Source of the DNA: Chryseobacterium indologenes
Lineage (GTDB): Bacteria; Bacteroidota; Bacteroidia; Flavobacteriales; Weeksellaceae
Reading direction: 5' to 3'
Length of the DNA stretch: 64,000 bases
NCBI GenBank assembly: GCA_016025055.1
Contig: CP065590.1
Span: forward strand, 4,526,001 to 4,590,000
Below the pieces are notes generated by a model, which saw only the letters and a list, made by a program, of their open reading frames with translations, searched no databases and had not been told where the DNA came from. A program made the position numbers and the translations under genes. The stretch's first letter is position 1; every line of letters starts with the position of its first letter. Positions 21,505-34,273 of the stretch are shown here, piece by piece.

Positions 21505-22706
21505 TTATATTGTAATGTTTTCATACTCTCTGAAATTTTCAATTTGTTTAATATAATCTGAAGGAGTCATTTGAACCCGATCTTTAAATGCCTTGATGAA
21601 AGTTGTCGAACTTTTATACCCGATCTCTTCAGCGATGGTCTGAATTGTATATTTACAAAATCTAGAATTTTCGTGAAGCTGCCTGAGTACATAATCTATT
21701 CTCAGGTTGTTGGTATACTCTGAAAAAGTAACTCCTTTATGCTGATTAATGATTTGTGACAAGTAAGCCGTATTGGTATTGAGCTGCTTGGCCACATGGG
21801 AAAGTTTGAAATTATTTGATAAGAACTTTTCTGAAGATTCTAATGTGTCAAGCTTTCTGAGAATGCGGTTGACCAGTTCATTATCAATGACAATATGATC
21901 TGTTTTTTCATTCTTTTCCGGGGCTTCAAAATTATAGATAATATTGATTTTCTGCGGTAACACCAGCGTTGCTGCCTTTTTCTTTTTATAATATCGGTAA
22001 CCCAGCATAAAAGTAACTGAACCTGAACTGAATAAAATCAGGGCAATAAGCAACAAAGAGTTCTTCCGGTTTTCTTTAACCGTCTCTTCTGAAAGTTTTT
22101 TAATTCCCTGCTGCTCATAGCCACCCGTAAAATTCTTGCTATCGTCATCCCATTGCTTCTTTTTAGCTATTTCAGACAAACTCATTTTTGCAAATTCGTA
22201 CGCTTTTTGGCTGTTGTTCAAATTTTCATAATTGATACTGAGCAAATAGTATATTTTCAATTTGCCTTCATGAGTATATTCAACTCCTGTATGGGCTTTA
22301 GCCAAACGATCAATATAAAAAAAGCAGAATCCGGCTGATTAATAAATGTAAAAGCTTCTGCCTTGCGCAGCCAAACGAATTCCCTTGAAAAGCTTTTCTG
22401 CATAAATTCAGAATCCTTTTGGCACAGATCAAAAAGTGTTATCGCTTTTGAATATTCTTTCTTCTGCATTGCAATTTCAGCCATTCTGCTCAGTTGTAAG
22501 GTTTTTGAAAACGATGAAAAATATGAGGAACTCTGTAGTAAAATATTTGCATTTTCATCATTTAATTTAAGATGTACGAAATCCCATTGATCCTTTTTGG
22601 GAGGTTCATCCATTTTCCCTGATTTTTTAAGATTAAAATTATTTTGCGAATAAACAGTAATGCAATAAAAAATTAGGAAGGTCAGTGTTTTTTTTGCAGG
22701 TATCAT
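21505..22706 (-). CDS. TPR/AraC-type membrane regulator (frameshifted in this sequence)
   Basis: A shorter paralogue of the neighbouring TPR/AraC protein, about 400 residues once the frame is repaired. It starts MIPAKKTLTFLIFYCITVYS (signal peptide), then TPR-like helices, a transmembrane helix (SLLLIALILFSSGSVTFML) and a C-terminal AraC domain (IAEEIGYKSSTTFIKAF). The frame is broken at seven A (22317-22323): as written it reads SAFFILIVWLKP, and with one more base SAFFYIDRLAKAHTG, joining both halves. It is probably an assembly error. Two such regulators side by side suggest duplication and divergence. Its target is not evident. Confidence 0.82.
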
Positions 22707-22742
22707 AGTTTTTTTATCGAAATGTGGCGAACTGCCTACCAC

Positions 22743-23317
22743 AAAACTACTTATTATAATTCAAAAAAAAAAGGGAGTAATCCAATATACTAAAATCGTT
22801 TTTTACTGATAACGAAAGTTTTTAGACCTTGTACCTAAAGAATATTGAGAATAAAAAAAAAGACAACAAGCAGGCACATAAACCACACAATAACAGTATT
22901 TTAAATAGAATTATTTTACACAAAACCGGTTTTTAAATTTATAAATATGAGTATTAATTTCTTTCAAATCTGTAAAAACCCGGGTACCTTTTAATCAAGA
23001 TTAACATGTACTTATTTAAAAATTAGCACCTATCGATTTATAAAATTATAGTTTCTAAAATAATTTTGATCTCTATCATTGAAAAAGAAAAACAGATTCC
23101 ATATTAAAATCCACTGATTTAAAAAGGGAACAACATAACCTGTAATTTCCGCTTACAAAACGCAGTAGTTCAATACAGGATATCATGTAAGTGAAGGAAT
23201 AAGATATTCCAATGCCATTGAGCTGATATCTCATGGTATTGACAACCTTGTTATAACGTGCGTCCCATATTTTTTTTAAGATAAAATACTGTTCATTAAT
23301 AATATAAGCCCAATTAG
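22743..23317. other. Long AT-rich intergenic stretch
   Basis: About 570 bases between the divergent TPR/AraC and MarR genes. I see no convincing gene; an 89-codon minus-strand frame at 23076-23345 has no recognisable features and overlaps the MarR promoter. No strong hairpin or repeat was found. Confidence 0.4.
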
Positions 23318-23348
23318 TTGGAATTAAAACTAATTTTACGTACATTTG
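23318..23348 (+). promoter_or_regulatory. Promoter of the marR-usp unit
   Basis: TTG (23318-23320) and TACATTTG (23341-23348) are separated by 20 bases, matching the Bacteroidota -33/-7 consensus in sequence and spacing. It supports translation starting at 23399. Confidence 0.75.
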
Positions 23349-23398
23349 GTAGGAAGCTTCAATCTGGAAACTCAGATTTCACCTTTATTTTTAAAAAT

Positions 23399-23848
23399 AT
23401 GTCTGAAAACCTAAATAAAAGATCTGAACTGGCCTTAGAACTAGGATGGGCAATGACAGAAATGAAAAGCCGTTTACGGCAAAAAATACAGGCGTGCGTG
23501 AATGAGTATGAGCAGGATATTTCTGTTGAATTGGTTGAAATTCTCGGACTTTTAACCAGAAATAATGGGATTAATCAACAGGAAATAGCTCATAAAGTAA
23601 GCAAAGACAAATCAAGCATCACCTATCTGATCAATAGTCTTGTAAAAAAAGATTTGGTAGAACGCGTGGCGTATAAAAGCGACAGGAGAAATAAACAGAT
23701 TTTTCTGACTCCAAAAGGGAAAAAGCTCGTAGAAAAAGTCTATCCATGGGCTTTGGAACTCTATGAAAAAGCTGCCGTTGGCCTCGATGAAGACGAGATC
23801 AACACGGCTCTTCTTTTAGTAAAAAAAATGACTGCAAACCTCCAATAA
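23399..23848 (+). CDS. MarR-family transcriptional regulator
   Basis: A 149-residue winged-helix repressor. The HTH is around NGINQQEIAHKVSKDKSS, followed by the wing VERVAYKSDRRNKQIFLT and C-terminal dimerisation helices. The open frame extends upstream to 23318, but the promoter sits in that stretch, so the start is MSENLNKRSEL at 23399. It is followed 22 bases later by a universal stress protein gene on the same strand and probably co-transcribed. It likely responds to a small molecule or oxidant and may repress its own operon; no palindrome was identified with confidence. Confidence 0.88.
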   Translation: MSENLNKRSELALELGWAMTEMKSRLRQKIQACVNEYEQDISVELVEILGLLTRNNGINQQEIAHKVSKDKSSITYLINSLVKKDLVERVAYKSDRRNKQIFLTPKGKKLVEKVYPWALELYEKAAVGLDEDEINTALLLVKKMTANLQ

Positions 23849-23870
23849 CAGGGTTTTAAATATATATCCT

Positions 23871-24719
23871 ATGAGAACAATTCTTGTACCTATCGACTTT
23901 ACCTCCACTACAGAAAATGCTGTAAAAGTTGCTGCAGAATGGGCAAAACATTATGAGTACCAAAACATTATCCTTCTAAAAACTGCCGGAGAATCTGAGT
24001 TTGATTATCTGCATATTGCTGAAGGACATTCATTTGTCAATGAAGAAAATGTCAACAATCTCCTGAAAAGGACAGAATTATTATTTGACCAGTTAACGAA
24101 GATTATTACAGATATTTCAAAGGAAGTAAAGGTTTCAAGATTATTAAGTGACTGGGCACTGACCAGAAGTATCAACGAGGTTTTGAAGGACCAGCCCTCG
24201 ATCGATATGATTATTTTGGGAAGCGATGACGCTACTTCTTCCAATGAAAGTTTTGTTTCGGATAATATTATTAGCATTGCACGAACAAGCGCCGTGAAAA
24301 CGCTCATTGTTCCGGCAAGCTATCAATACAATACTATTAAAAACATCGTCATTCCATGCGATATCAATGGGATTAAAAAGCTGGAAAGACTCTTCCATCA
24401 CAAATCGGTTATACAAAAACAGGATCTTCGCCTGTCTTTCTTAAATATCAATACCAAAGAGGGAACCGATATTAATCCTGACAAAAAGAAAGAACTTGAA
24501 GATTATATCCGCAACTATTTAACCGATATTCCCGGCAATATCTATTATTCTTATGACGATAATGTGATCAAAGGAATCCTGACTTTTGCTTCCGCCAATG
24601 ATGCAGATCTTATTATTGCATTACCGGGCAGGCATAGCTTCCTGTATTATATGGCCAGCAGAAGCATTTCCGAAGGGATTTATCAAAATAGCAACCTTCC
24701 TGTTCTGATTTTAAAATAA
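23871..24719 (+). CDS. Tandem-domain universal stress protein (UspA family)
   Basis: A 282-residue cytoplasmic protein with two Usp domains. The first starts MRTILVPIDFTSTTENAVK and ends with DMIILGSDDATSS and VKTLIVPA; the second starts KNIVIPCDINGIKK and ends ADLIIALPGRHSFLYY and LPVLILK. The ATP-binding G-x2-G-x9-G pattern is not clear in either half, so it may be the non-ATP-binding type. These proteins rise under starvation or redox stress. It is in a unit with the upstream MarR gene and convergent with a Crp/Fnr gene, which suggests a small stress-response cluster. Confidence 0.85.
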   Translation: MRTILVPIDFTSTTENAVKVAAEWAKHYEYQNIILLKTAGESEFDYLHIAEGHSFVNEENVNNLLKRTELLFDQLTKIITDISKEVKVSRLLSDWALTRSINEVLKDQPSIDMIILGSDDATSSNESFVSDNIISIARTSAVKTLIVPASYQYNTIKNIVIPCDINGIKKLERLFHHKSVIQKQDLRLSFLNINTKEGTDINPDKKKELEDYIRNYLTDIPGNIYYSYDDNVIKGILTFASANDADLIIALPGRHSFLYYMASRSISEGIYQNSNLPVLILK

Positions 24720-24761
24720 ATTAGGACGGATGCAAGGCATCAAAACGGGAACAATCATATG

Positions 24762-25358
24762 CTAATAATAGATTTTGGTACTATCCAGCTTAACGAGTTT
24801 TTGCTCCTCCATTTTCTTGACATATCGGATGACTGTTTCCACCCGGAGGCCGGTTAAGGTAGCAATTTGCTGTCTTGTGTAGGGGATCAGAAAAGAATAG
24901 GTCTCTTCAAAACCGAAATAATTTTTAAGATGATCAAATAACTTCTTAAGTTTTACGGTAGGATCAGAAATAGCTAAAAAACTGGAAATCATATACCTGA
25001 AGTGCAACCTGTCTGCTGTATAATTACTCAGTTTGAGCAGCAGAGAGGGCTTTTCCAGCAGAACGGGCAAAAATTTACTTTTGGGAAGCTTAATAATTTT
25101 GCAATCTGAAACGGCAATAGCATTGACCGCATAGTTATGTTCTGTAAACAAATAGCTTTCCCCAATACAGTGGCCGTCAAAGGGAAGTCCATGAACAAAT
25201 TCTTTTCCTTCCTCCGTAAAGGTATTCAGCTTTACGGTGCCACCTTTAATCTGAAAATAAAATTTAGCAGAAGTTCCTTCCTGAAAAATATAATCTGCTG
25301 CATTATATTCTGTTATTTGAGCTCCGTGAGAAAATAACAGATCTTCACATATAACCAT
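24762..25358 (-). CDS. Crp/Fnr-family transcriptional regulator
   Basis: A 198-residue regulator with an N-terminal cyclic-nucleotide-binding-like beta barrel (YIFQEGTSAKFYFQIKGG) and a C-terminal winged helix (TRQQIATLTGLRVETVIR). It lacks the four-cysteine iron-sulfur set of FNR, so the signal is not oxygen through a cluster of that type. A close paralogue lies at 54801-55394: both share the start M-I-x-E-D-L-L, the GKEF segment and the same recognition helix, so they may bind overlapping sites. It is convergent with the universal stress protein gene. Confidence 0.87.
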   Translation of the reverse strand: MVICEDLLFSHGAQITEYNAADYIFQEGTSAKFYFQIKGGTVKLNTFTEEGKEFVHGLPFDGHCIGESYLFTEHNYAVNAIAVSDCKIIKLPKSKFLPVLLEKPSLLLKLSNYTADRLHFRYMISSFLAISDPTVKLKKLFDHLKNYFGFEETYSFLIPYTRQQIATLTGLRVETVIRYVKKMEEQKLVKLDSTKIYY

Positions 25359-25737
25359 CTTGTCATTAATTTTTAGTAAAAATACTTAAAGAATAAGCTA
25401 CAATGCAACTTATTGAATACCACATTCAAAAATATAATTAAAATATATCAATCATAAAATATTATTTTTTCATATTTTTCATTTTATACATTCAAAAACC
25501 TGTACAAAGAATTCAGATTCCTGAAAACTCTTTACATTTTGCAGAAATACAGTCTTTATCCGGACTTTTAATGAAATGCGGTTATTCTTTTTATTTTAAA
25601 CTTCCTACTTATCCCTTTTATTGCTTCTTTAAAAAAGTATATTCAAACATCCATACTATAAACTATTACAAATTACTTTCCTCAACATATGTAAACGTTT
25701 TCTTTATTTTTATATTGAATCTTTGCTTAAAAATATC
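25359..25737. other. AT-rich divergent intergenic region
   Basis: About 380 bases between the divergent Crp/Fnr and RidA genes. It must hold both promoters, but I cannot point to a clean TAnnTTTG box. A 121-codon plus-strand frame over 25571-25936 overlaps the RidA gene in another frame and is rejected. Confidence 0.35.
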
Positions 25738-26157
25738 ATGGAAAATAATACAACTCCACAGTTCATCAACCCTAAAGAATTGTTTAACCCCGGACCGTAC
25801 GGATTCTCACACAGTATTGCTGTGCAATCTCCTTTTCAAATGTGCTTTATATCCGGACAAAGTGGTGGTCTCGGAGAGCACCATCTACTGGCGACTGATT
25901 TTCAAACCCAGGTTCAGCATGCTTTGGAAAATGTAAAAATTGTATTGCAAAACCATTCTATGACATTCGATCATATTGTTAAAATTACCCTTTTGATTGT
26001 TGGTCACAACCAGGAAAAACTCCGGATATGGGCTGAAGAAGCTTCAAAAGTATGGAGTTCTGCTTCTCTGCCAACCAGCACTCTGATTCCGGTAAGTCAG
26101 CTGGCATTACCTGATATGTTATTTGAGATCGATGCGATTGCTGTGAAAGTGAAATAA
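25738..26157 (+). CDS. RidA/YjgF-family protein
   Basis: A 139-residue RidA-like protein of the chorismate-mutase-like trimer fold. Characteristic parts are FNPGPYGFSHSIAV, MCFISGQSGG, TQVQHALENVKIVL and the C-terminal LFEIDAIAVKVK. Canonical RidA deaminates reactive enamine/imine intermediates from PLP enzymes; the catalytic arginine usually found near the C-terminal third is not evident here, so it may be a non-deaminase relative. I start at the Met at 25738 (MENNTTPQF) rather than 25723. It stands alone. Confidence 0.8.
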   Translation: MENNTTPQFINPKELFNPGPYGFSHSIAVQSPFQMCFISGQSGGLGEHHLLATDFQTQVQHALENVKIVLQNHSMTFDHIVKITLLIVGHNQEKLRIWAEEASKVWSSASLPTSTLIPVSQLALPDMLFEIDAIAVKVK

Positions 26158-26269
26158 AGTAATTCTGCAGAGATGTATTTACAACCACAAGGATAACCAT
26201 ATGGTTTATATTTTTAAATAGGTTACTTGCTACAATATTTTCAGTTGAGCTATAGACGGGAAAGTGTTA

Positions 26270-26935
26270 TTATTTTTCCGTCTTGTCCTGTTCGGATATC
26301 AGGTTTTCATATGTTTGATCTATCAGAAAAGAGATCGCTTTTTTAACGTGATCCCGTCCTTCAGGGCTGTTCATGTCTATCCCGCAGAAAACACTTCCAT
26401 TTAACGAAGAATACATATTGAGATAATAAAGTCCTGCAACAATGATAGCTAAGATTGAGCGATAAACTCCCATTTTTTCTTTAAAGTGCGGGGTCATCAT
26501 AAGGTCAAAGATATATTCTCCGTTTTCTTCCTGTTCATCAATCATTTTTTTCAATGATTTTCGGGGTTCCGATACACTCCACAATAATAATTTTTGTGCT
26601 TCCTTATTATTGTACACATAATCAAATTGTGAAATTAGCATCGCTTCAATAAATGATCTTCCCCCATCCTCAAGATTCGGTTGTATTTTTTCAACTTCTT
26701 TACTTGTTACTTTCACCCAATAATCCTGAGTACGAAGATATTCATCGATCAATCCGTCCATCCCGCCAAAATAGGTATAGATCATCTTTTTGTCTACCCC
26801 GGCAATAGCAGCAATATCATTGATCTTTAGTGCTGCAAATCCCTTCGTAGTCAAAATTTTTCCAACTGCGTCCAAAAACTTCTGTTTACTTCGTTCTTTA
26901 TTTCGGATGCTACCCGCTGCTGATTTTCTTTCCAT
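26270..26935 (-). CDS. TetR-family regulator, paralogue 1 of 3
   Basis: A 221-residue TetR-type repressor. After the basic start MERKSAAGSIRNKERSKQK comes the HTH (INDIAAIAGVDKKMIYTYFG), then a helical ligand-binding domain with conserved SEPRKSLKK and EENGEYIF segments. It is one of three tandem paralogues (27715-28380 and 28645-29295) with the same start, HTH and C-terminal pattern (FCGID-N/D-x-PEGRD). Its upstream region carries an ACAC-n6-GTGT palindrome at 26983-26996 and a promoter pointing away on the plus strand, consistent with autoregulation at a divergent operator. On the minus strand the tetR promoter segment TTAAACTTGTATTTTGAA is shared by all three genes. Confidence 0.88.
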   Translation of the reverse strand: MERKSAAGSIRNKERSKQKFLDAVGKILTTKGFAALKINDIAAIAGVDKKMIYTYFGGMDGLIDEYLRTQDYWVKVTSKEVEKIQPNLEDGGRSFIEAMLISQFDYVYNNKEAQKLLLWSVSEPRKSLKKMIDEQEENGEYIFDLMMTPHFKEKMGVYRSILAIIVAGLYYLNMYSSLNGSVFCGIDMNSPEGRDHVKKAISFLIDQTYENLISEQDKTEK

Positions 26936-26982
26936 GATGAACATTCAAAATACAAGTTTAAGGAATTTTTTTCATTTTTGAA

Positions 26983-27013
26983 CACCAACAAGTGTCTTAT
27001 TTCATATATTTGC
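26983..27013 (+). promoter_or_regulatory. Operator/promoter element A (ACAC...GTGT palindrome plus TATATTTG)
   Basis: An imperfect palindrome ACAC-n6-GTGT (26983-26996), then CTTATTT and TATATTTG (27006-27013). The palindrome lies in the spacer between -33 and -7 regions, so a bound repressor would block polymerase. It is 48 bases upstream of tetR paralogue 1 and points away from it. No terminated transcript is visible after this copy. Confidence 0.65.
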
Positions 27014-27181
27014 AATAAATAAATCATTATTTCTGCAGAAAAAACATTCCAATATGCGAAATTCATAATGATTTTAAGCAATAATTTCAACCTATTTAAG
27101 CTCAAAAATCCTTTAATATGAAAATTATTGATCTGAATAACAATAACTTACAATAAATTCAAAACTTTTTTCATTTTTTTA

Positions 27182-27212
27182 GACACTTTCAAGTGTCTTA
27201 TTTGTATATTTG
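27182..27212 (+). promoter_or_regulatory. Operator/promoter element B
   Basis: A perfect 7-bp palindrome GACACTT-TC-AAGTGTC (27182-27197) followed at the same spacing by TATATTTG (27205-27212). There is no tetR gene directly to its left; a degenerate form of the tetR promoter segment is there instead, suggesting loss of a gene copy. Confidence 0.7.
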
Positions 27213-27217
27213 TCGAA

Positions 27218-27376
27218 ACTAATACCATCCATATATAACAAAAACACTATTCAGGTTGAAAATTAAAAAATTTCGATCACCTTCCTTGATTAGAATAATT
27301 AGTTTCGAAATTAGATAATTAAGGTAAAAAAAACTACTGTAAACAGCAACATTAATTTTAATGATGCTGTTTTTTA
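27218..27376 (+). ncRNA. Candidate short terminated transcript B
   Basis: From the predicted start after element B, about 130 bases similar to copies C and E (ACTAA-ACCA, TTCAGGTTG, TTCGAAA, TTAAGGTAAAAA) end in a terminator: CAGCA-n-CATTA pairs with TAATG-n-TGCTG (27344-27369), then six Ts. No reading frame with features was found. It may be a small RNA, or a leader that lost its gene. Confidence 0.45.
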
Positions 27377-27494
27377 ATGTAGGAGTCACCCAATATGCTG
27401 ACAGCGAAAGGATTACACAGTTCATATTCTTAGAAAAAAAATACACTGTAAATCAACACATTACTCAATATTAACAAAATTTTATCAATTTTAC

Positions 27495-27525
27495 ACACTA
27501 CACGGTGTCTTATTTCATATATTTG
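27495..27525 (+). promoter_or_regulatory. Operator/promoter element C
   Basis: ACACT-acac-GGTGT (27495-27508) with one mismatch in the arms, then CTTATTT and TATATTTG (27518-27525). It has the same arrangement and spacing as the other four copies. No tetR gene lies directly to its left. Confidence 0.65.
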
Positions 27526-27530
27526 CATAA

Positions 27531-27688
27531 ACTAAAACCAACTACATACATAAAAACACACTTCAGGTTGTAAAAAATTAGTGCAATTGTATTGATGTTC
27601 CCTCAACTTAAGACAATTTCGAAAAACAACTAAGGTAAAAACACGACACAAATAACCCCATTAGAAGGTAATGGGGTTGTTTTTTTTA
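27531..27688 (+). ncRNA. Candidate short terminated transcript C
   Basis: Downstream of element C, a leader with ACTAAAACCAACT, TTCAGGTTG, GATGTTCCCT and AAGGTAAAAACAC ends in the strong terminator AACCCCATTA-GAAGG-TAATGGGGTT (27654-27678) plus eight Ts. The terminator differs in sequence from those of copies B, D and E, but the leader is shared. A 12-codon frame (ATGTTCCCT...) is present, and copy E has a similar 13-codon one; copy B does not. Confidence 0.5.
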
Positions 27689-27714
27689 TCTGTGAAAAGA
27701 TAGACTCGATTCAT

Positions 27715-28380
27715 CTACTCCTTCTTCTTCTTCTCCTTATCCTCCAATTTATCATACGAATGGTCTAACATGAAAGATATTGCTTCTTTGATCTGATCAC
27801 GACCTTCAGGTTTATTAACGTCTATACCGCAAAAAAGACTGCCATTCACCGAAGAAAACATGTTCAGATAATAAAGCCCCGAAACCATTATAGCCATTAT
27901 AGAGCGAAAAACATTTTCATTTTCTTTAAAATGAGAATCAGCAAATCGCTTAAAAATGTATTCTCCGTTCTCTTCCTGCAGATCAGTTAGTTTCCTCAGT
28001 TCTTTCCGGGGTTCAGATAAACGCCATAACAAGAGTTTTTGAGCTTCTTTATTTTTGTACACGTACTCAAATTGTGACAGAAACATTTCTTTGGCAAAAG
28101 CTTTGCCCGCATCGTCTATTATTGGGTTTATCTTTTCGACTTCTTCAGCAGTCATTTTACTCCAGAAATCCTGAGAACGGATATATTCGTCCATCAGCCC
28201 ATCCATACCGCCAAAATAAGTATAGATCATTTTTTTATCTACACCGGCTGTAGCCGCAATATCATTTATTTTTAATGCCGTATAACCCTTTGTTTTCAGA
28301 ATTTTTCCAACTGCATCTAAAAACTTTTTTTTACTGCGTTCTTTGTTTCTAACACTACCTGCTGCTGATTTTCTTTCCAT
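27715..28380 (-). CDS. TetR-family regulator, paralogue 2 of 3
   Basis: A 221-residue TetR-type protein starting MERKSAAGSVRNKERSKKK, with HTH INDIAATAGVDKKMIYTYFG nearly identical to paralogue 1. The C-terminal domain keeps SEPRKELRK, EENGEYIF and FCGIDVNKPEGRD and ends in a charged EDKEKKKKE tail. The near-identical recognition helices imply that all three bind the same operator. The gene converges with candidate transcript C, whose terminator ends 27 bases from its stop, and diverges from element D upstream. Its promoter segment CTTAAACTTGTATATTGAA matches those of the other two copies. Confidence 0.88.
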   Translation of the reverse strand: MERKSAAGSVRNKERSKKKFLDAVGKILKTKGYTALKINDIAATAGVDKKMIYTYFGGMDGLMDEYIRSQDFWSKMTAEEVEKINPIIDDAGKAFAKEMFLSQFEYVYKNKEAQKLLLWRLSEPRKELRKLTDLQEENGEYIFKRFADSHFKENENVFRSIMAIMVSGLYYLNMFSSVNGSLFCGIDVNKPEGRDQIKEAISFMLDHSYDKLEDKEKKKKE

Positions 28381-28427
28381 TGTAAAAATTCAATATACAA
28401 GTTTAAGAAAATTTTTAAACATTTTGC

Positions 28428-28458
28428 ACACTACTTAGTGTCTTATTTTGTATATTTG
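28428..28458 (+). promoter_or_regulatory. Operator/promoter element D
   Basis: A perfect palindrome ACACTA-CT-TAGTGT (28428-28441) and TATATTTG (28451-28458), 47 bases upstream of tetR paralogue 2 and pointing away from it. Confidence 0.7.
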
Positions 28459-28463
28459 CATCA

Positions 28464-28533
28464 ACTAACAACCTTTTCATACATTAAACATGACACTCAA
28501 CAGCAGCATTAGACCTCTAGTGATGCTGTTTTT
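28464..28533 (+). ncRNA. Candidate short transcript D (internally deleted copy)
   Basis: Element D is followed after only about 40 bases by the hairpin CAGCA-n-CATTAG / CTAGTG-n-TGCTG (28501-28528) and a T-run. It keeps both ends of the B/C/E leader but lacks most of the middle, so it is a shortened copy. Confidence 0.4.
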
Positions 28534-28644
28534 GTTTTATGCAAACAACGTATTCATAGCACTTACATAAGATTACGCCTGTTTTATTGCTCTTTATTCA
28601 GGTTGTAAAAGGATTTCTTTTATTCCATAGAAAAATTCTATGCA

Positions 28645-29295
28645 TTAGTCTGATTTTTGTAAATTTTCATAGGTCTGATTTAATAAAAAGGATAATGCCT
28701 TTTTTATTTTATTACGTCCTTCAGGAGTATCAACATCGATTCCGCAAAAAATGCTGCCGTTCATCGCAGCGTATAAATTCAGATAGTACAATCCGGAAAC
28801 CATTATGGCCATTATCGAGCGGATGTCATCAGAATGTTTCCCGAAATCAGAGCCATTCATAATTTTAAAAACATATTCCCCGTTTTCTTCCTGGATATCA
28901 GTCATTTTCTTCAAGGATTTCCGTGGCTCGGATAAACGCCACAGCAAAAGCTTTTGGGCTTCTATATTCTGATAGAGATAATCAAACTGATTGTGCAGCA
29001 TATCATGCATAAATGATTTTCCTCCGTCATCTGTTCTCGGTTGCATTTTTCCGATTTCCTCGGCAGTCACCTTACTCCAGTAATCCTGAGAACGCACATA
29101 TTCGTCCAGCAAATCATCTAATCCGCCAAAATATTTATAGATCATTTTTTTATCTACTCCGGCGGTAGCTGCGATGTGGTTTATCTTTAATCCTGTATAT
29201 CCCTTCGTTTTTAAGATCTTTCCGACTGCATCCAAAAATTTCTTTTTGCTGCGCTCTCTGTTGCGAATACTGCCTCCTGCTGATTTTCTTTCCAT
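28645..29295 (-). CDS. TetR-family regulator, paralogue 3 of 3
   Basis: A 216-residue TetR-type protein starting MERKSAGGSIRNRERSKKK at 29295 (an in-frame Met at 29310 is possible). HTH: INHIAATAGVDKKMIYKYFG. The ligand-binding domain keeps SEPRKSLKK, EENGEYVF and FCGIDVDTPEGR. It is the most diverged of the three in the HTH (His and Lys changes), but the operator upstream (element E) keeps the same ACACT-n4-AGTGT core. It probably autoregulates, and may cross-regulate the other copies. No efflux pump or enzyme gene that usually accompanies TetR regulators is adjacent. Confidence 0.88.
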   Translation of the reverse strand: MERKSAGGSIRNRERSKKKFLDAVGKILKTKGYTGLKINHIAATAGVDKKMIYKYFGGLDDLLDEYVRSQDYWSKVTAEEIGKMQPRTDDGGKSFMHDMLHNQFDYLYQNIEAQKLLLWRLSEPRKSLKKMTDIQEENGEYVFKIMNGSDFGKHSDDIRSIMAIMVSGLYYLNLYAAMNGSIFCGIDVDTPEGRNKIKKALSFLLNQTYENLQKSD

Positions 29296-29343
29296 GGTGA
29301 AATCGTTCAAGATACAAGTTTAAGAAAAATTTCAATATTTTAC

Positions 29344-29374
29344 ACACTTCGTAGTGTCTTATTTTATATATTTG
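29344..29374 (+). promoter_or_regulatory. Operator/promoter element E
   Basis: ACACT-tcgt-AGTGT (29344-29357), then CTTATTT and TATATTTG (29367-29374). It lies about 49 bases upstream of tetR paralogue 3 and points away from it. Confidence 0.7.
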
Positions 29375-29379
29375 TACAA

Positions 29380-29538
29380 ACTAAAACCAACTCTATAGAA
29401 AAAAACACGATTTTACGTTGAAAGTAAAATTTTCGATTGCGTAATGTTCCCTTTAATACAGTTAGTTCGGACATTAAGTGATTAAGGTAAAAACACTCAT
29501 TGTGACAGCATCATTAGATTTCTAGTGATGCTGTTTTA
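29380..29538 (+). ncRNA. Candidate short terminated transcript E
   Basis: The leader after element E shares ACTAAAACCAACT, AATGTTCCCT and TTAAGGTAAAAACAC with copy C and has a long terminator stem CAGCATCATTAG / CTAGTGATGCTG (29506-29533) followed by TTTT. The stem sequence is related to those in copies B and D. A 13-codon frame starting ATGTTCCCT is present; whether it is translated is unknown. Confidence 0.5.
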
Positions 29539-29539
29539 T

Positions 29540-29920
29540 TATAATGAAAAATGAAAATAAAGGATCAGGTGCAAAAGTTTGGTTCATCTGAAGAGAAAAA
29601 ACGTCCTGTCTTTTATACCTCCAAGTTGTATCCTAAGTTTTACAAAACGTAAAGACAGGATGCGATTCTTATTGAGGAGGGAGCTAAGAAGCGACAAAGT
29701 CGCTGATGAAACTTTATGGATATGCGTACGCTTAGAAAAAATCAATGAAGTTGATTCCATCCTTTGCTTACCTAGAATAATTTGCAAGAATAGTGAAAAC
29801 TTTGCGTTACACAACCACCCCAGTTTTTGAGATTGATCCGTGAAAAGGATTATCAGAACCAAAGTTACTACCAGTTCATGTATTTACGGAAACCCGTAAT
29901 CAACTTTAGATTACAGATAC
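29540..29920. other. Intergenic stretch without a supported gene
   Basis: About 380 bases after transcript E. Two overlapping frames on opposite strands (29579-29830 plus, 29584-29862 minus) have no family features and I do not call either. Nothing else was recognised. Confidence 0.35.
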
Positions 29921-29928
29921 TATTTTTG
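29921..29928 (+). promoter_or_regulatory. Promoter -7 box of the DUF3606 gene
   Basis: TATTTTTG matches TAnnTTTG, 37 bases before the ATG at 29966. Confidence 0.5.
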
Positions 29929-29965
29929 ATTTGAAATAATTCATTAATCATTAAAAACAATTAGT

Positions 29966-30142
29966 ATGAGTGACGATTTAAACAAAAAAAGACCACAGGA
30001 TGCCTCTAAAATAAATATTCATGAGGTGTGGGAAGTCCAATACTGGACCAGAACATTAGGAGTTACCGAAGAGCAATTGAAAAGGGCTGTTCAAGCTGTT
30101 GGAACATCAGTCGCAGATGTTAGAAGATATCTCGGTAAATAG
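29966..30142 (+). CDS. DUF3606-type small protein
   Basis: A 58-residue soluble protein starting MSDDLNKKRPQDASKINIHE, with the pattern VQYWTRTLGVTEEQLKRAV and ending VADVRRYLGK. The E-V-x-YW-x3-LGV-x2-EQL core followed by a short helix identifies the DUF3606 family of small stress-associated proteins in Bacteroidota and Proteobacteria. The molecular function is unknown. It is a single-gene unit with its own promoter box and terminator. Confidence 0.82.
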   Translation: MSDDLNKKRPQDASKINIHEVWEVQYWTRTLGVTEEQLKRAVQAVGTSVADVRRYLGK

Positions 30143-30165
30143 TCAGAAAAAATGGCCTACAAAAA

Positions 30166-30196
30166 AAAGCTGCCTCATTATTGAAGCAGCCTTTTC
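30166..30196. terminator. Bidirectional terminator between the DUF3606 gene and pgl
   Basis: AAAGCTGC-n-TCA pairs with TGA-n-GCAGC-CTTTT around a TTAT loop. It has an A-run on the left and Ts on the right and lies between convergent genes. Confidence 0.75.
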
Positions 30197-30244
30197 TGTT
30201 TTGTGATAAACAGGCATTTTTTAATTAATGCATCGTATCAGATT

Positions 30245-30964
30245 TTATTTTGATTCGCCTCTCGCTTTTTCATCAGTAAAAAACTGAAATTTATCTTTTT
30301 TCTCAATAAGTTGCATCGGATATACTGCAGGATTATATTCCCCGTTCAAGATTTCATTCAAGGCATGTTTCTTAGATTCACCAAATGCCACTGCCAGAAT
30401 ATTTTCTGCTTTATTGATCAATGGTGCGGTTAAAGTAATTCTGAACATTTCCTGGGGCTTCAGATAATAAGCTGCTACCCATTTTTCTTTCTCCTGTAAA
30501 ACTTCTTCACCGGGAAATAAGGATGCTGTATGGCCGTCATCCCCCATTCCTAAAAGGATAAAATCAAATATTCCTTCCTCACCAAGAACTTTTCTTATCT
30601 GTTTTTCATATACTTTAGCATAATCTTCGGGAAGAATACCATCCTGATACATGGGGAAAATATGATCTTTATCTGCAGGAACGTGCTTAAGCAGCGCTTC
30701 ATCCGTCATACGGAAATTGCTTTTATCATCATGTAAAGGCACCCATCGCTCATCAACCCAAAAAAAGTAAACCTTATTCCATTCAATTTGCTTTGCGTAT
30801 TCTTCTGTAGCCAGCAATTTAAAAATAGCCTTGGGAGAAGAACCTCCGCTTAAAGCTACAGCAAATCGGTTATGTTTCTGAATAGATTGTTTTGAAAGAT
30901 TTACAAAGGTATCAGCTGCTTTTTTATACAGTGTATCCAAATCATCAAATACTGTAATATTCAT
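30245..30964 (-). CDS. pgl: 6-phosphogluconolactonase
   Basis: A 239-residue DevB-type lactonase that hydrolyses 6-phosphogluconolactone to 6-phosphogluconate, the second step of the oxidative pentose phosphate pathway. Signatures are ALSGGSSPKAIFKLL (residues 37-51, phosphate binding), VYFFWVDERWVP and LLGMGDDGHTASLFPG with the catalytic His. It is the last gene of a gnd-zwf-pgl operon, starting 26 bases after the stop of zwf. Length and motifs are normal. Confidence 0.95.
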   Translation of the reverse strand: MNITVFDDLDTLYKKAADTFVNLSKQSIQKHNRFAVALSGGSSPKAIFKLLATEEYAKQIEWNKVYFFWVDERWVPLHDDKSNFRMTDEALLKHVPADKDHIFPMYQDGILPEDYAKVYEKQIRKVLGEEGIFDFILLGMGDDGHTASLFPGEEVLQEKEKWVAAYYLKPQEMFRITLTAPLINKAENILAVAFGESKKHALNEILNGEYNPAVYPMQLIEKKDKFQFFTDEKARGESK

Positions 30965-30990
30965 TTTCTGTCTGTTTAGTTTTTATTGTT

Positions 30991-32472
30991 TTACACCCAG
31001 TTATGCCCTTGTCTTTCAACCAGTGTATTGCTGTCTTCCGGGCCCCAGCTTCCAGCTTTATAATTGGGAAATGATGAGTCTTTATTATTTTCCCAGGCTT
31101 CCTGGATAGTGGTGACAACGTCCCATGCCTCTTCCACCTGGTCAGAACGCATAAATAAGGTAAGGTCACCAAGTAATGCATCCTGTAATAAAGTTTCATA
31201 AGCTTCAGGAGTATCTTCCTGACAGGCAAAATTATCAAAAATCATTTCCACAGGTTTCAGATCCATGGCAAGTCCTGGCTTCTTGGCCATAAACAGAAGC
31301 CTGATATCCATCATGGGCTGGATGTTAATGATTAACCTGTTGGCGGATAAATGATGTGGAGTATCTGAAAATGTTGAATGAGGCAGCGGTTTAAACTGAA
31401 TGGTAATATAGGAATGTTTTTCTTTCATTTTCTTTCCGGTACGAACGTAAAAAGGCACATCCTGCCATCTGTCGTTGTCCAGATAAAATTTTATAGCAGC
31501 AAATGTTTCTGTGTTTGAATCAGAAGCAATTCCATTTTCCTGGCGATATCCTTTTACTTCGGTTCCGTCGATAATACTTCTCCCATATTGGCCTCTTACA
31601 GCGTAATGATCAACCTGATCGGAAGAAATTCTGCGAATTGCTTTTAAGACATCCACTTTACGATCTCTGATTTCACCGGATTTTAAAGAAGCCGGAGGTT
31701 CCATAGCCACCATGCACAGAATCTGCAACAGGTGATTTTGAATCATATCTTTCAGGGCTCCGGTTTGTTCGTAGAAAGCGCCTCTTGTTTCAACACCTAC
31801 TTCTTCTGCCACCGTAATCTGCACCGATTCTATATATTTATGATCCCAAAGCGGCTCAAAAATAGAATTTCCAAATCTGAAAGCGAGTATATTCTGTACG
31901 GTTTCTTTCCCCAGATAATGATCGATACGGTAGATTTGTTCTTCTTCAAATGTTTCTGCCAGAAGACTGTTCAGCTCAACGGCAGATTGCTTGTTGTGCC
32001 CGAAAGGTTTTTCGATAATGATTCTGTCTTTTTTTGAATCTGAGGCTAATGAAGTATTTTTGATGTGATTGGAAATCGTGGAAATAAAGTTGGGCCCGAT
32101 TGACAAATAGAACAATCGATTGGCTCTCATTCCATAAACGGTATCGAAATCCTTTAATTTCTGATATAAATCTTTATAAGACTGTTCTTCATCCAGCTGG
32201 TGCTGAAAGTAGGTAATATGAGCCTGAAAACCTGCCCAGTCTTCGGAGGTTACCTTCTTTCTTGAAAAATCTTCCAGATTTTCTTTAACGTAATTTCTGA
32301 AATTTTCGTCTGTATTTTCGGCTCTTCCCAGGGCAATAATATTAAAGCCTTTGGGCATCCTTCCATCTATATATAAATTATAAAATGCCGGAAAAAGTTT
32401 TCTTTTGGCCAAATCTCCTGTAGCACCAAAAATAATGATTGTAGTGGGCTGCAAAATTCTATTCTCGTTCAT
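30991..32472 (-). CDS. zwf: Glucose-6-phosphate dehydrogenase
   Basis: A 493-residue NADP-dependent dehydrogenase that oxidises glucose-6-phosphate to the lactone and makes NADPH. The Rossmann motif IIFGATGDLAKRKLFPA is near the N-terminus and the active-site motif RIDHYLGKETVQN near residue 185. I use the start MNENRILQPT at 32472 rather than 32505, because this follows the gnd stop by 11 bases while the longer form would overlap it. It lies between gnd and pgl, so the whole oxidative branch is made from one transcript. Confidence 0.95.
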   Translation of the reverse strand: MNENRILQPTTIIIFGATGDLAKRKLFPAFYNLYIDGRMPKGFNIIALGRAENTDENFRNYVKENLEDFSRKKVTSEDWAGFQAHITYFQHQLDEEQSYKDLYQKLKDFDTVYGMRANRLFYLSIGPNFISTISNHIKNTSLASDSKKDRIIIEKPFGHNKQSAVELNSLLAETFEEEQIYRIDHYLGKETVQNILAFRFGNSIFEPLWDHKYIESVQITVAEEVGVETRGAFYEQTGALKDMIQNHLLQILCMVAMEPPASLKSGEIRDRKVDVLKAIRRISSDQVDHYAVRGQYGRSIIDGTEVKGYRQENGIASDSNTETFAAIKFYLDNDRWQDVPFYVRTGKKMKEKHSYITIQFKPLPHSTFSDTPHHLSANRLIINIQPMMDIRLLFMAKKPGLAMDLKPVEMIFDNFACQEDTPEAYETLLQDALLGDLTLFMRSDQVEEAWDVVTTIQEAWENNKDSSFPNYKAGSWGPEDSNTLVERQGHNWV

Positions 32473-32483
32473 TTTTACCCGGT

Positions 32484-33902
32484 TTATTGATTTACACTCT
32501 GCCATGATGTATGGAAAACGCCCTCTCTGTCAAGGCGCTGATAGGTATGTGCCCCGAAATAATCACGCTGAGCCTGGATTAAATTGATAGGAAGATATTC
32601 TGTGGTATACGCATCAAAATACCCTAAAGCTGTCTGAAGTCCTAAACCTGAAACTCCGCTTGAAACCGCAAAGGCAGCTGTTTTTCTTAAGGAACCTATT
32701 TTTTCTTTCACTATCGCGGCAATATCAGCATCCAATAAAATATTAGACAGATTCGGATCTTTGGTATAAGCTGTATAAAACTTTTCTAACAGGACGGAAC
32801 GAATAATACAACCTCCTCTCCAGATTTTTACTACATCTTTTAAGGGAATCTCAAAGTTATATTCTTCAGAAGCCTTCACGAGTAAGGCCAATCCCTGAGC
32901 ATAGCTTATCAGCGTAGCCAGATATAAGGCATCTCCTACTTCTTTAATGAATTGGTCTGTATTTTCAGGGGTTGCAATTTCTGCTTTAGGATACAATTGA
33001 GAAGCCTGAACCCTCTCCTCTTTATATGCTGATAAAATTCTTGAAGTCACGGCAATATCAATGGTCGGAATGGAAACTCCGATTTCCATGGCTTGCTCGG
33101 AAGTCCACTTTCCGGTTCCCTTTGCCCCTGCCTTATCCAAAATCTGATCGATAAGATATTGATCTGTGAATGTATCTTTTTGCTGGAAAATATCTCTGGT
33201 GATTTCAATCAGGAACGAGTTCATTTCTCCATTGTTCCATTCTCTGAAAACCTCATACAATTGATCATTATTGAGTTTCGCCCCTCTTTTCAGCAAATCG
33301 TAGGCTTCACTGATCAGTTGCATGATTGCATACTCGATTCCGTTGTGTACCATTTTCACATAGTTTCCGGCAGAACCTTTCCCCATATAAGCTGTACAGG
33401 CTTCATTATCTACTTTTGCAGCAATTGCTTCAAGCATTGGTTGTAGAAGGTTGAAAGCTTCTAAATCACCTCCGGGCATTATACTTGGGCCTGTTCTCGC
33501 TCCTTTTTCACCTCCCGAAACGCCCATTCCCATAAAGTGCAGGTTTTTTGAACCCAGATCAGCAATACGTCTGTTTGTATCTTCAAAGTAGGAATTACCG
33601 GCATCAATTACGATATCTCCTTTGCTTAAAAGCGGGGTAATATTTTCGAGTACTGCATCTACAGGCTTTCCGGCGGGAACCATCAGAATAATTTTCCTTG
33701 GGCTTTCCAGTGCAGCTACAAAATCTTCTAAAGATCCTATACCTTTTACTTTCATTGTTGAAGTGGCGCCTTCTTCTAATTCGTTTACTTTTTCTTCGTC
33801 GAGGTCAAATCCTGCGATTGAAAAACCATTATCGGCAATATTATAAAGAAGATTTCGCCCCATTACTCCAAGGCCAACCATTCCGTAATTATATCTCTCC
33901 AT
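32484..33902 (-). CDS. gnd: 6-phosphogluconate dehydrogenase (decarboxylating)
   Basis: A 472-residue NADP-dependent enzyme that converts 6-phosphogluconate to ribulose-5-phosphate, CO2 and NADPH. The N-terminal Rossmann motif is GLGVMGRNLLYNIAD, the substrate-binding loop GVSGGEKGARTGPSIMPGG, and the catalytic segment is KMVHNGIEYAIMQ. The C-terminal tail ends RLDREGVFHTSW, as in the 470-residue dimeric enzymes. It is the first gene of the gnd-zwf-pgl operon. The promoter region upstream shows no clean TAnnTTTG box. Confidence 0.95.
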   Translation of the reverse strand: MERYNYGMVGLGVMGRNLLYNIADNGFSIAGFDLDEEKVNELEEGATSTMKVKGIGSLEDFVAALESPRKIILMVPAGKPVDAVLENITPLLSKGDIVIDAGNSYFEDTNRRIADLGSKNLHFMGMGVSGGEKGARTGPSIMPGGDLEAFNLLQPMLEAIAAKVDNEACTAYMGKGSAGNYVKMVHNGIEYAIMQLISEAYDLLKRGAKLNNDQLYEVFREWNNGEMNSFLIEITRDIFQQKDTFTDQYLIDQILDKAGAKGTGKWTSEQAMEIGVSIPTIDIAVTSRILSAYKEERVQASQLYPKAEIATPENTDQFIKEVGDALYLATLISYAQGLALLVKASEEYNFEIPLKDVVKIWRGGCIIRSVLLEKFYTAYTKDPNLSNILLDADIAAIVKEKIGSLRKTAAFAVSSGVSGLGLQTALGYFDAYTTEYLPINLIQAQRDYFGAHTYQRLDREGVFHTSWQSVNQ

Positions 33903-34273
33903 TGTATTGATATTAATATGAATTCTATTATACAGAGAATAAAATTACGCAAATGCTTAGGAGGAAAAAAATAAAGCAGGTAAAAATTTTCAACTGCTTC
34001 TACTTATCGTTCATTTATAAGTTGATACAATGGTATTATTTTTTTCGTGTTTAAATTTTTATAAAAAAATAAAAATATAGTTTTTTCTGTACAATAGTTT
34101 CCTTTATTTGATCGGAGCCCCTAAATATCAATGTTTTACCACAAAAAACTTTATTCCATAATACCGTATTTTCAATAAACGGAATAAAATTCAATCATTA
34201 TAATGGGAATGATCTATTAAAATGGTACTAGTATTTGAAATAATTAAACTTATCTTTACAAAAATTTAAATTA
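33903..34273. other. Divergent intergenic region before gnd and a hypothetical gene
   Basis: About 370 AT-rich bases that must hold the gnd operon promoter and that of the plus-strand gene at 34274. I see no clear -33/-7 pair, structured RNA or small gene. TATCTTTA near 34252 is one base off the consensus. Confidence 0.35.

Follow-up and report, generated by a model that had tools for sequence, protein, structure and literature searches.

A TetR-associated cluster of putative multicopy small RNA genes in Chryseobacterium indologenes

TetR repressors usually govern pumps or enzymes, so that a clue to the ligand can be read from the target; in tetR-tetA and acrR-acrAB a palindromic operator lies between the divergent genes and overlaps the promoter of the target. 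What is then governed by three tetR genes whose operators face neither a pump nor an enzyme? This question is raised by a cluster at positions 26945-29540 of a 64,000-nucleotide (nt) stretch of contig CP065590.1 of Chryseobacterium indologenes, hereafter the window (the host genome has 4.92 Mb). On the plus strand of this interval no divergent pump or enzyme gene was found under the operator, as the initial annotation of the DNA had noticed, so that the locus is not a TetR-efflux pair. We consider it rather likely that the cluster encodes trans-acting small RNAs (sRNAs), present in several copies and repressed by TetR.

Five plus-strand elements composed of a palindrome, CTTATTT and a -7 box had been announced, and all five were recovered between 26982 and 29374. 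Each of them has the layout ACACY-n4-RGTGT-CTTATTT, then one or two bases and a TATATTTG box, which we take to be the Bacteroidota -7 element. The palindrome ACACT-n4-AGTGT is exact in modules B (27183-27212), D (28428-28458) and E (29344-29374), and departs by one base in A (26982-27012; ACACC-AACA-AGTGT) and in C (27495-27525; ACACT..GGTGT). The distance between the start of the module and the start codon of its tetR is 47 bases for A (tetR1), 48 for D (tetR2) and 49 for E (tetR3), in agreement with the distance of about 48 bases first given, and the coordinates bear out that B and C have no neighbouring tetR. The palindrome falls inside the promoter spacer (-33 to -7), a placement consistent with the repression proposed from the start.

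Such a grouping is more than chance: a fuzzy pattern of the full element matched five times in the window, always within the 2.6 kb of the cluster region and nowhere in the rest, and never in 200 segment-swap shuffles of the region that keep dinucleotides. In the whole genome, the 18-base operator ACACTnnnnAGTGTCTTA has three exact matches, all in the cluster, and 11 matches at up to one mismatch, six of them in the cluster. At up to two mismatches 34 matches were obtained versus 59 for the reversed pattern, so that matches outside the cluster are at chance level. The full operator-promoter spacing is absent from the seven other stretches of the host genome with operator-like matches that were read.

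Do these promoters all lead to the same product? Five short-transcript modules had been described, which holds for B, C and E, each followed by a short unit; the unit of D is cut short and no RNA could be recognised for A, so that five equal modules are not upheld. RNAs B (27213-27375), C (27526-27687) and E (29375-29537), all on the plus strand, are homologous and 162-163 nt long, with a leader (AAACUAA-A-ACCA...AACAC, mostly unpaired), a middle, a 3' element (AAGGUAAAA, also given as UAAGGUAAAA...) and a terminator hairpin followed by T's. They match at E=1.6e-9, 7.0e-10 and 3.0e-11 respectively an RNA model, R1, made from 43 of the 64 distinct 3' elements after thinning by hand and including these three RNAs themselves. 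The transcript of B would start about 5-6 nt inside 27213, and its terminator hairpin has a value of -12.8 kcal/mol; a simple terminator scan listed the hairpins of C and E and left those of B and D unlisted. RNA D (28459-28531, plus strand), whose sequence is outside the model and matches it weakly (E=4.8e-4), looks like a minimal remnant: its leader is degenerate, a terminator-like hairpin follows and the AAGGUAAAAACAC element is absent. Between modules A and B neither a recognisable RNA nor a terminator was found, and the transcript of A may read into B. The simple scan also scored operator B (27181-27198) as a terminator-like hairpin, at which transcription begun at promoter A could be halted or slowed. 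No open reading frame (ORF) of at least 50 amino acids (aa) lies on the plus strand of the window between a promoter and its terminator. An Rfam scan of positions 22000-34000 of the window and of 12 loci returned five rows, all below gathering scores and none on these RNAs. Judged from sequence only, the units have the own promoter and the intrinsic terminator that characterize an sRNA.

Is this arrangement peculiar to one strain? Modules were sought in 48 sequences (the window stretch, two other stretches of the host genome and 45 loci from other records), with a scan that was loosened after locus L012 had been read. It found 107 modules, and none in the same DNA read backwards. The operator modules are kept across species; the initial annotation had made the conservation of the palindrome among relatives a test of its proposal. 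Of the 107 modules, 60 have a tetR start at a distance of at most 75 nt and 47 have none so near: operators without an adjacent tetR, like B and C, are common. The stricter scan gave 81 modules from the window and related loci, and in 35 of them the start codon of a tetR is 47-50 nt away. Across these 81 the four central bases of the palindrome are free, the half-sites and CTTATTT being nearly fixed, a conservation that is partly built in since the scans demand these parts with few mismatches. The motif TTTTA just upstream of the operator, absent from the scan criteria, is also strongly conserved. The modules followed by this RNA belong to a single clade within the genus; a 3' element and a terminator-like hairpin follow in 68 of the 81. 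After removal of those with more than two mismatches in the 3' element, and of a spurious long match in L019, we obtained a set of 65 RNAs of 117 to 565 nt (22 of at most 135 nt, 25 of 136-180 nt and 18 longer). Module counts may be low for some loci, as the sequence stops at contig ends (e.g. L020 and L022).

To judge by their reading frames these RNAs are noncoding, with no conserved ORF. The longest ORF starting at ATG has a median of 5 codons, against about 11 in shuffles that preserve base composition only, and exceeds the shuffles at p<0.05 in 2 of the 65 RNAs; of the alignment gaps counted in 19 long RNAs, 54 out of 371 are divisible by three. The leader motifs AACTAA and ACCA are present in 64 and 65 of the 65 RNAs, and the leader is the most open part measured, with a mean probability of being unpaired of 0.73 versus 0.49 for the middle. 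The pairing of the terminator is accompanied by covariation: 29 double-change cells, a level reached by none of 500 shuffles, and 95% of the cells paired versus 27-79% when slid. The long RNAs, whose alignment was made without L045 and L046, contain moreover a core hairpin, GGAUCA...UGAUCC with an inner CAGU...ACUG. It was analysed on an alignment, A3, of 14 segments (from 16 references, L030 and one duplicate being omitted and L048 shortened by hand): 90% of the cells are paired versus 21-41% when slid, and three pairs have a change on both sides. All 12 segments that were folded are more stable than the shuffle mean, six of them with z < -3. These values give the core hairpin of the long RNAs moderate support.

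Do the RNA and the TetR occur together? In the genus, the same 60 of 173 genomes contain a TetR at E<=3.0e-89 and an RNA at E<=6.5e-8, the two genome lists being matched by eye; the other 113 have TetR relatives only at E>=1.5e-76, and none of the 173 has a strong TetR or a strong RNA without its partner. One tetR is combined with at least one module in 19 loci; the module is single in 18 of these, and the remaining locus has five; two-tetR loci contain 2-4 modules and three-tetR loci 3-5. For the TetRs of multi-copy loci the best match lies in another genome in 53 of 54 cases, and thus the paralogues are old and have been kept. Long RNAs are mostly found in single-tetR loci (12 of the 18 longer than 180 nt, L022, at a contig end, being counted as single) and short ones in multi-tetR loci (44 of the 47 of at most 180 nt). 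This suggests that the short forms arose by duplication, the core being lost and both ends retained.

Outside the genus the operator was met in other settings. In Paenimyroides (L053:2629-4951) an operator-promoter 50 nt from tetR faces protein ORFs instead of an RNA—named by eye, one retropepsin-like of 308 aa and one serine-hydrolase-like of 439 aa. In a Flavobacterium metagenome-assembled genome (L051:4400-4785) the operator precedes an unrelated, noncoding stretch that measures about 185 nt and closes with a strong terminator-like hairpin, the whole lying more than 200 nt upstream of the tetR homologue. The palindrome is also kept in Chishuiella. The operator thus probably predates this RNA. 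In Pedobacter (L037:1-740), where a TetR of about 70% identity lies at a contig end, no operator was found in the 725 bases upstream. Besides, a more distant TetR (56%, G219) has a different palindrome, ATCACCAAATGGTGAT, which overlaps a TATATTTG box and precedes an unrelated ORF (L170:190-220).

The three regulators are encoded on the minus strand by tetR1 (26270-26935; 221 aa from MERKS), tetR2 (27715-28380; 221 aa) and tetR3 (28645-29295; 216 aa from MERKS). All three proteins display the N-terminal helix-turn-helix domain TetR_N (PF00440) above the Pfam gathering score. The AlphaFold2 model of the tetR2 product (mean predicted local distance difference test score, pLDDT, 83.3) is nearly all helix and agrees with the TetR fold: named TetR regulators are frequent among the 50 PDB matches listed, but the TM-scores (template modelling scores) remain in the range 0.39-0.70, and E<=0.001 is attained by just 2 of 831 matches. 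The proteins had been called near-identical, which proved wrong, their overall identity being 66.7-68.3%; over columns 1-68 of the alignment it reaches 79-88%. This pattern fits shared operators combined with different signals, and the idea that the paralogues have their operators in common thus agrees with the sequences. Another tetR paralogue of the host genome, at 3741120, is 50% identical, and no cluster-type palindrome was found in the 6 kb around it. In two other loci (L049:4014-6448 and L016:3630-4264) tetR paralogues are split in two reading frames, which suggests decay or sequencing error.

How might such a cluster work? We propose that a TetR dimer sitting on ACACT-n4-AGTGT, in the spacer that separates the -33 region from the TAnnTTTG -7 box, would block the RNA polymerase, and that a small ligand would free TetR, so that several promoters would fire together. 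Related RNAs would be made, each stopped by its intrinsic terminator, and would pair with mRNAs in trans, in the manner of the FopS sRNAs of Bacteroides. Transcription, repression, release by a ligand and pairing in trans are steps that we infer from the sequences. A conserved leader that is mostly unpaired, the lack of an ORF and intrinsic termination are frequent traits of mRNA-pairing sRNAs. The additional copies might provide a higher dose or a varied target range, and the paralogous TetRs, whose DNA-binding half is better conserved than their ligand half, might bring different signals onto the same operators. More tentatively, the locus could be a dedicated signal-to-RNA switch: the only recognisable full operator-promoters of this TetR clade would serve noncoding RNAs of a new class, a structured ancestor of up to about 560 nt would have been copied and pared down until both conserved ends were left, and the paralogous TetRs would feed different ligands into one RNA pool.

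Several results weigh against a TetR-repressed set of trans-acting sRNAs. The 60 genomes share ancestry, so that the co-occurrence does not amount to 60 independent events. Seven genomes without this TetR clade give weak RNA matches (E 7.2e-6 to 2.0e-4), and distant or stray TetR homologues stand without a recognised RNA copy in L037, L050, L051, L053, G219 and G165. For the RNAs of at most 200 nt, no complementarity to the tetR mRNA starts was detected (mean z -0.05, n=100), and no convincing target was found among five neighbouring gene groups. The core hairpin covaries modestly, 20-114 of 500 column shuffles scoring as high as the real alignment, and RNAalifold predicts the terminator alone for 49 short RNAs and for 19 long RNAs; for nine long RNAs it predicts 49 pairs, six with a change on both sides. 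A conserved long-range helix joining the 5' and 3' ends of all RNAs is at best weakly supported, 407 of 10,000 permutations reaching its value and several long forms giving little sign of it.

Other candidates for pairing were set aside. The mean z near zero speaks against a feedback of the RNAs of at most 200 nt on the tetR mRNA starts. The ferritin-like neighbour gene is weak as a target (mean z -1.34, n=22, from related species), and pgl/zwf give a few single pairs at z -3 to -4, the mean having no clear shift. The complement of the 3' element has two hits in the genome, both on the opposite strand of the cluster's own RNA genes, against six for the control. The host genome gave no match for Hfq and one for an RRM protein.

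The RNAs could also act through a protein, their conserved ends and core hairpin binding an RNA-binding protein, such as the single RRM protein, or TetR itself and the copies titrating it. This we find unlikely: it would accommodate the forms of up to 565 nt with a common hairpin, the RNA-TetR linkage across genomes, the single RRM match and the lack of a target among the neighbour genes, but the short forms have no core hairpin and yet keep the leader, and TetR proteins are not known to bind RNAs of this kind. That the RNAs are leaders or leftovers of protein genes lost from a former TetR-controlled divergent operon seems quite improbable; the operator-promoter of the same type which faces protein ORFs in Paenimyroides is in line with it, whereas the conservation across the clade of both RNA ends, of the terminator pairing and of multiple modules would not be expected under decay.

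Ordinary divergent autoregulation of tetR, with plus-strand transcripts as by-products, would account for the 60 modules just upstream of a tetR, but not for the 47 that are elsewhere, nor for the conservation of the RNA sequence itself; we hold it for very improbable. Finally, it is hardly credible that the RNAs encode short peptides. By eye, RNA D can be read as an ORF of 26 codons that extends across its terminator-like hairpin, and two RNAs have an ORF longer than their shuffles; on the other hand the matching reading in L009 stops, also by eye, after 8 codons, the ATG ORFs are overall shorter than in shuffles and the gaps ignore the frame.

If the cluster is indeed a TetR-repressed set of sRNAs, it resembles tetR-tetA and acrR-acrAB by its palindromic operator overlapping the target promoter, and differs from them in that the target is apparently a noncoding RNA and that extra operator-RNA copies exist without tetR. 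The Qrr sRNAs of Vibrio are several related sRNAs placed in one signalling circuit under a sigma-54 response regulator. Here too related RNAs would be switched together, by adjacent TetR operators instead of such a regulator. Repressor-controlled sRNAs and multicopy sRNAs are known kinds; what appears new, as far as can be read from the DNA, is a dedicated TetR with a clustered RNA output, orphan operators and a series from long to short RNAs.

The closest likeness in the phylum is FopS of Bacteroides thetaiotaomicron, described in PMC11697453 as a family of paralogous sRNAs, 14 of which are classed (nine intergenic, four antisense and one derived from a 3' untranslated region), deposited in Rfam and whose regulator is unknown. 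FopS is, like the present RNAs, a multicopy Bacteroidota sRNA family with a single-stranded conserved 5' stretch, then an intrinsic terminator, and with a canonical Bacteroidota promoter (PMC11697453). By contrast, the RNAs here lie in one cluster, with TetR-type operators, an added 3' element and long relatives; they gave no Rfam match in the regions scanned, though release 15 may not hold the FopS model. Membership in FopS would further involve binding by RbpB, an RRM protein, a type for which the host genome has one match. Rfp18 of Flavobacterium psychrophilum is likewise a structured flavobacterial sRNA conserved in its genus; judged by its description it differs, in that the word TetR is absent from the main text of PMC9723704. 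PMC2864571 was discarded as a TetR paper: among its seven matches to the string "TetR", those seen belong to tetraloop, tetrahydrofolate and similar words. In the literature searched we recognised no description of a TetR-controlled RNA cluster in Chryseobacterium.

The direct output of TetR appears here to be RNA alone. The cluster is also a small model offered by nature: its promoters, operators and terminators are defined, its natural variants form a graded series from one long RNA to as many as five modules, and no Hfq was found in the host genome. If confirmed, it would bring two questions within reach of experiment, namely for what reason sRNA genes multiply and in what way operators are shared among paralogous repressors.

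Some features around the cluster are worth a mention. In the window about 420 bases without a clear gene (29540-29960) separate the terminator of RNA E from a DUF3606 gene (29966-30142). In many species the cluster is flanked by a gene group (L012:7058-10634) that is absent beside the window cluster. Named by eye in 46 loci, this group comprises an unknown 508-aa protein (25 loci), a ferritin-like protein (19) and an oxidoreductase-like protein (17), and in many of the loci that have it pgl-zwf-gnd lies on the opposite side of the cluster. Elsewhere in the host genome (L127:1505-1518), a lone palindrome, TAACACACTAAATAGTGTCATA, stands beside a TACATTTG box, upstream of an ORF whose beginning resembles that of a lipoprotein.

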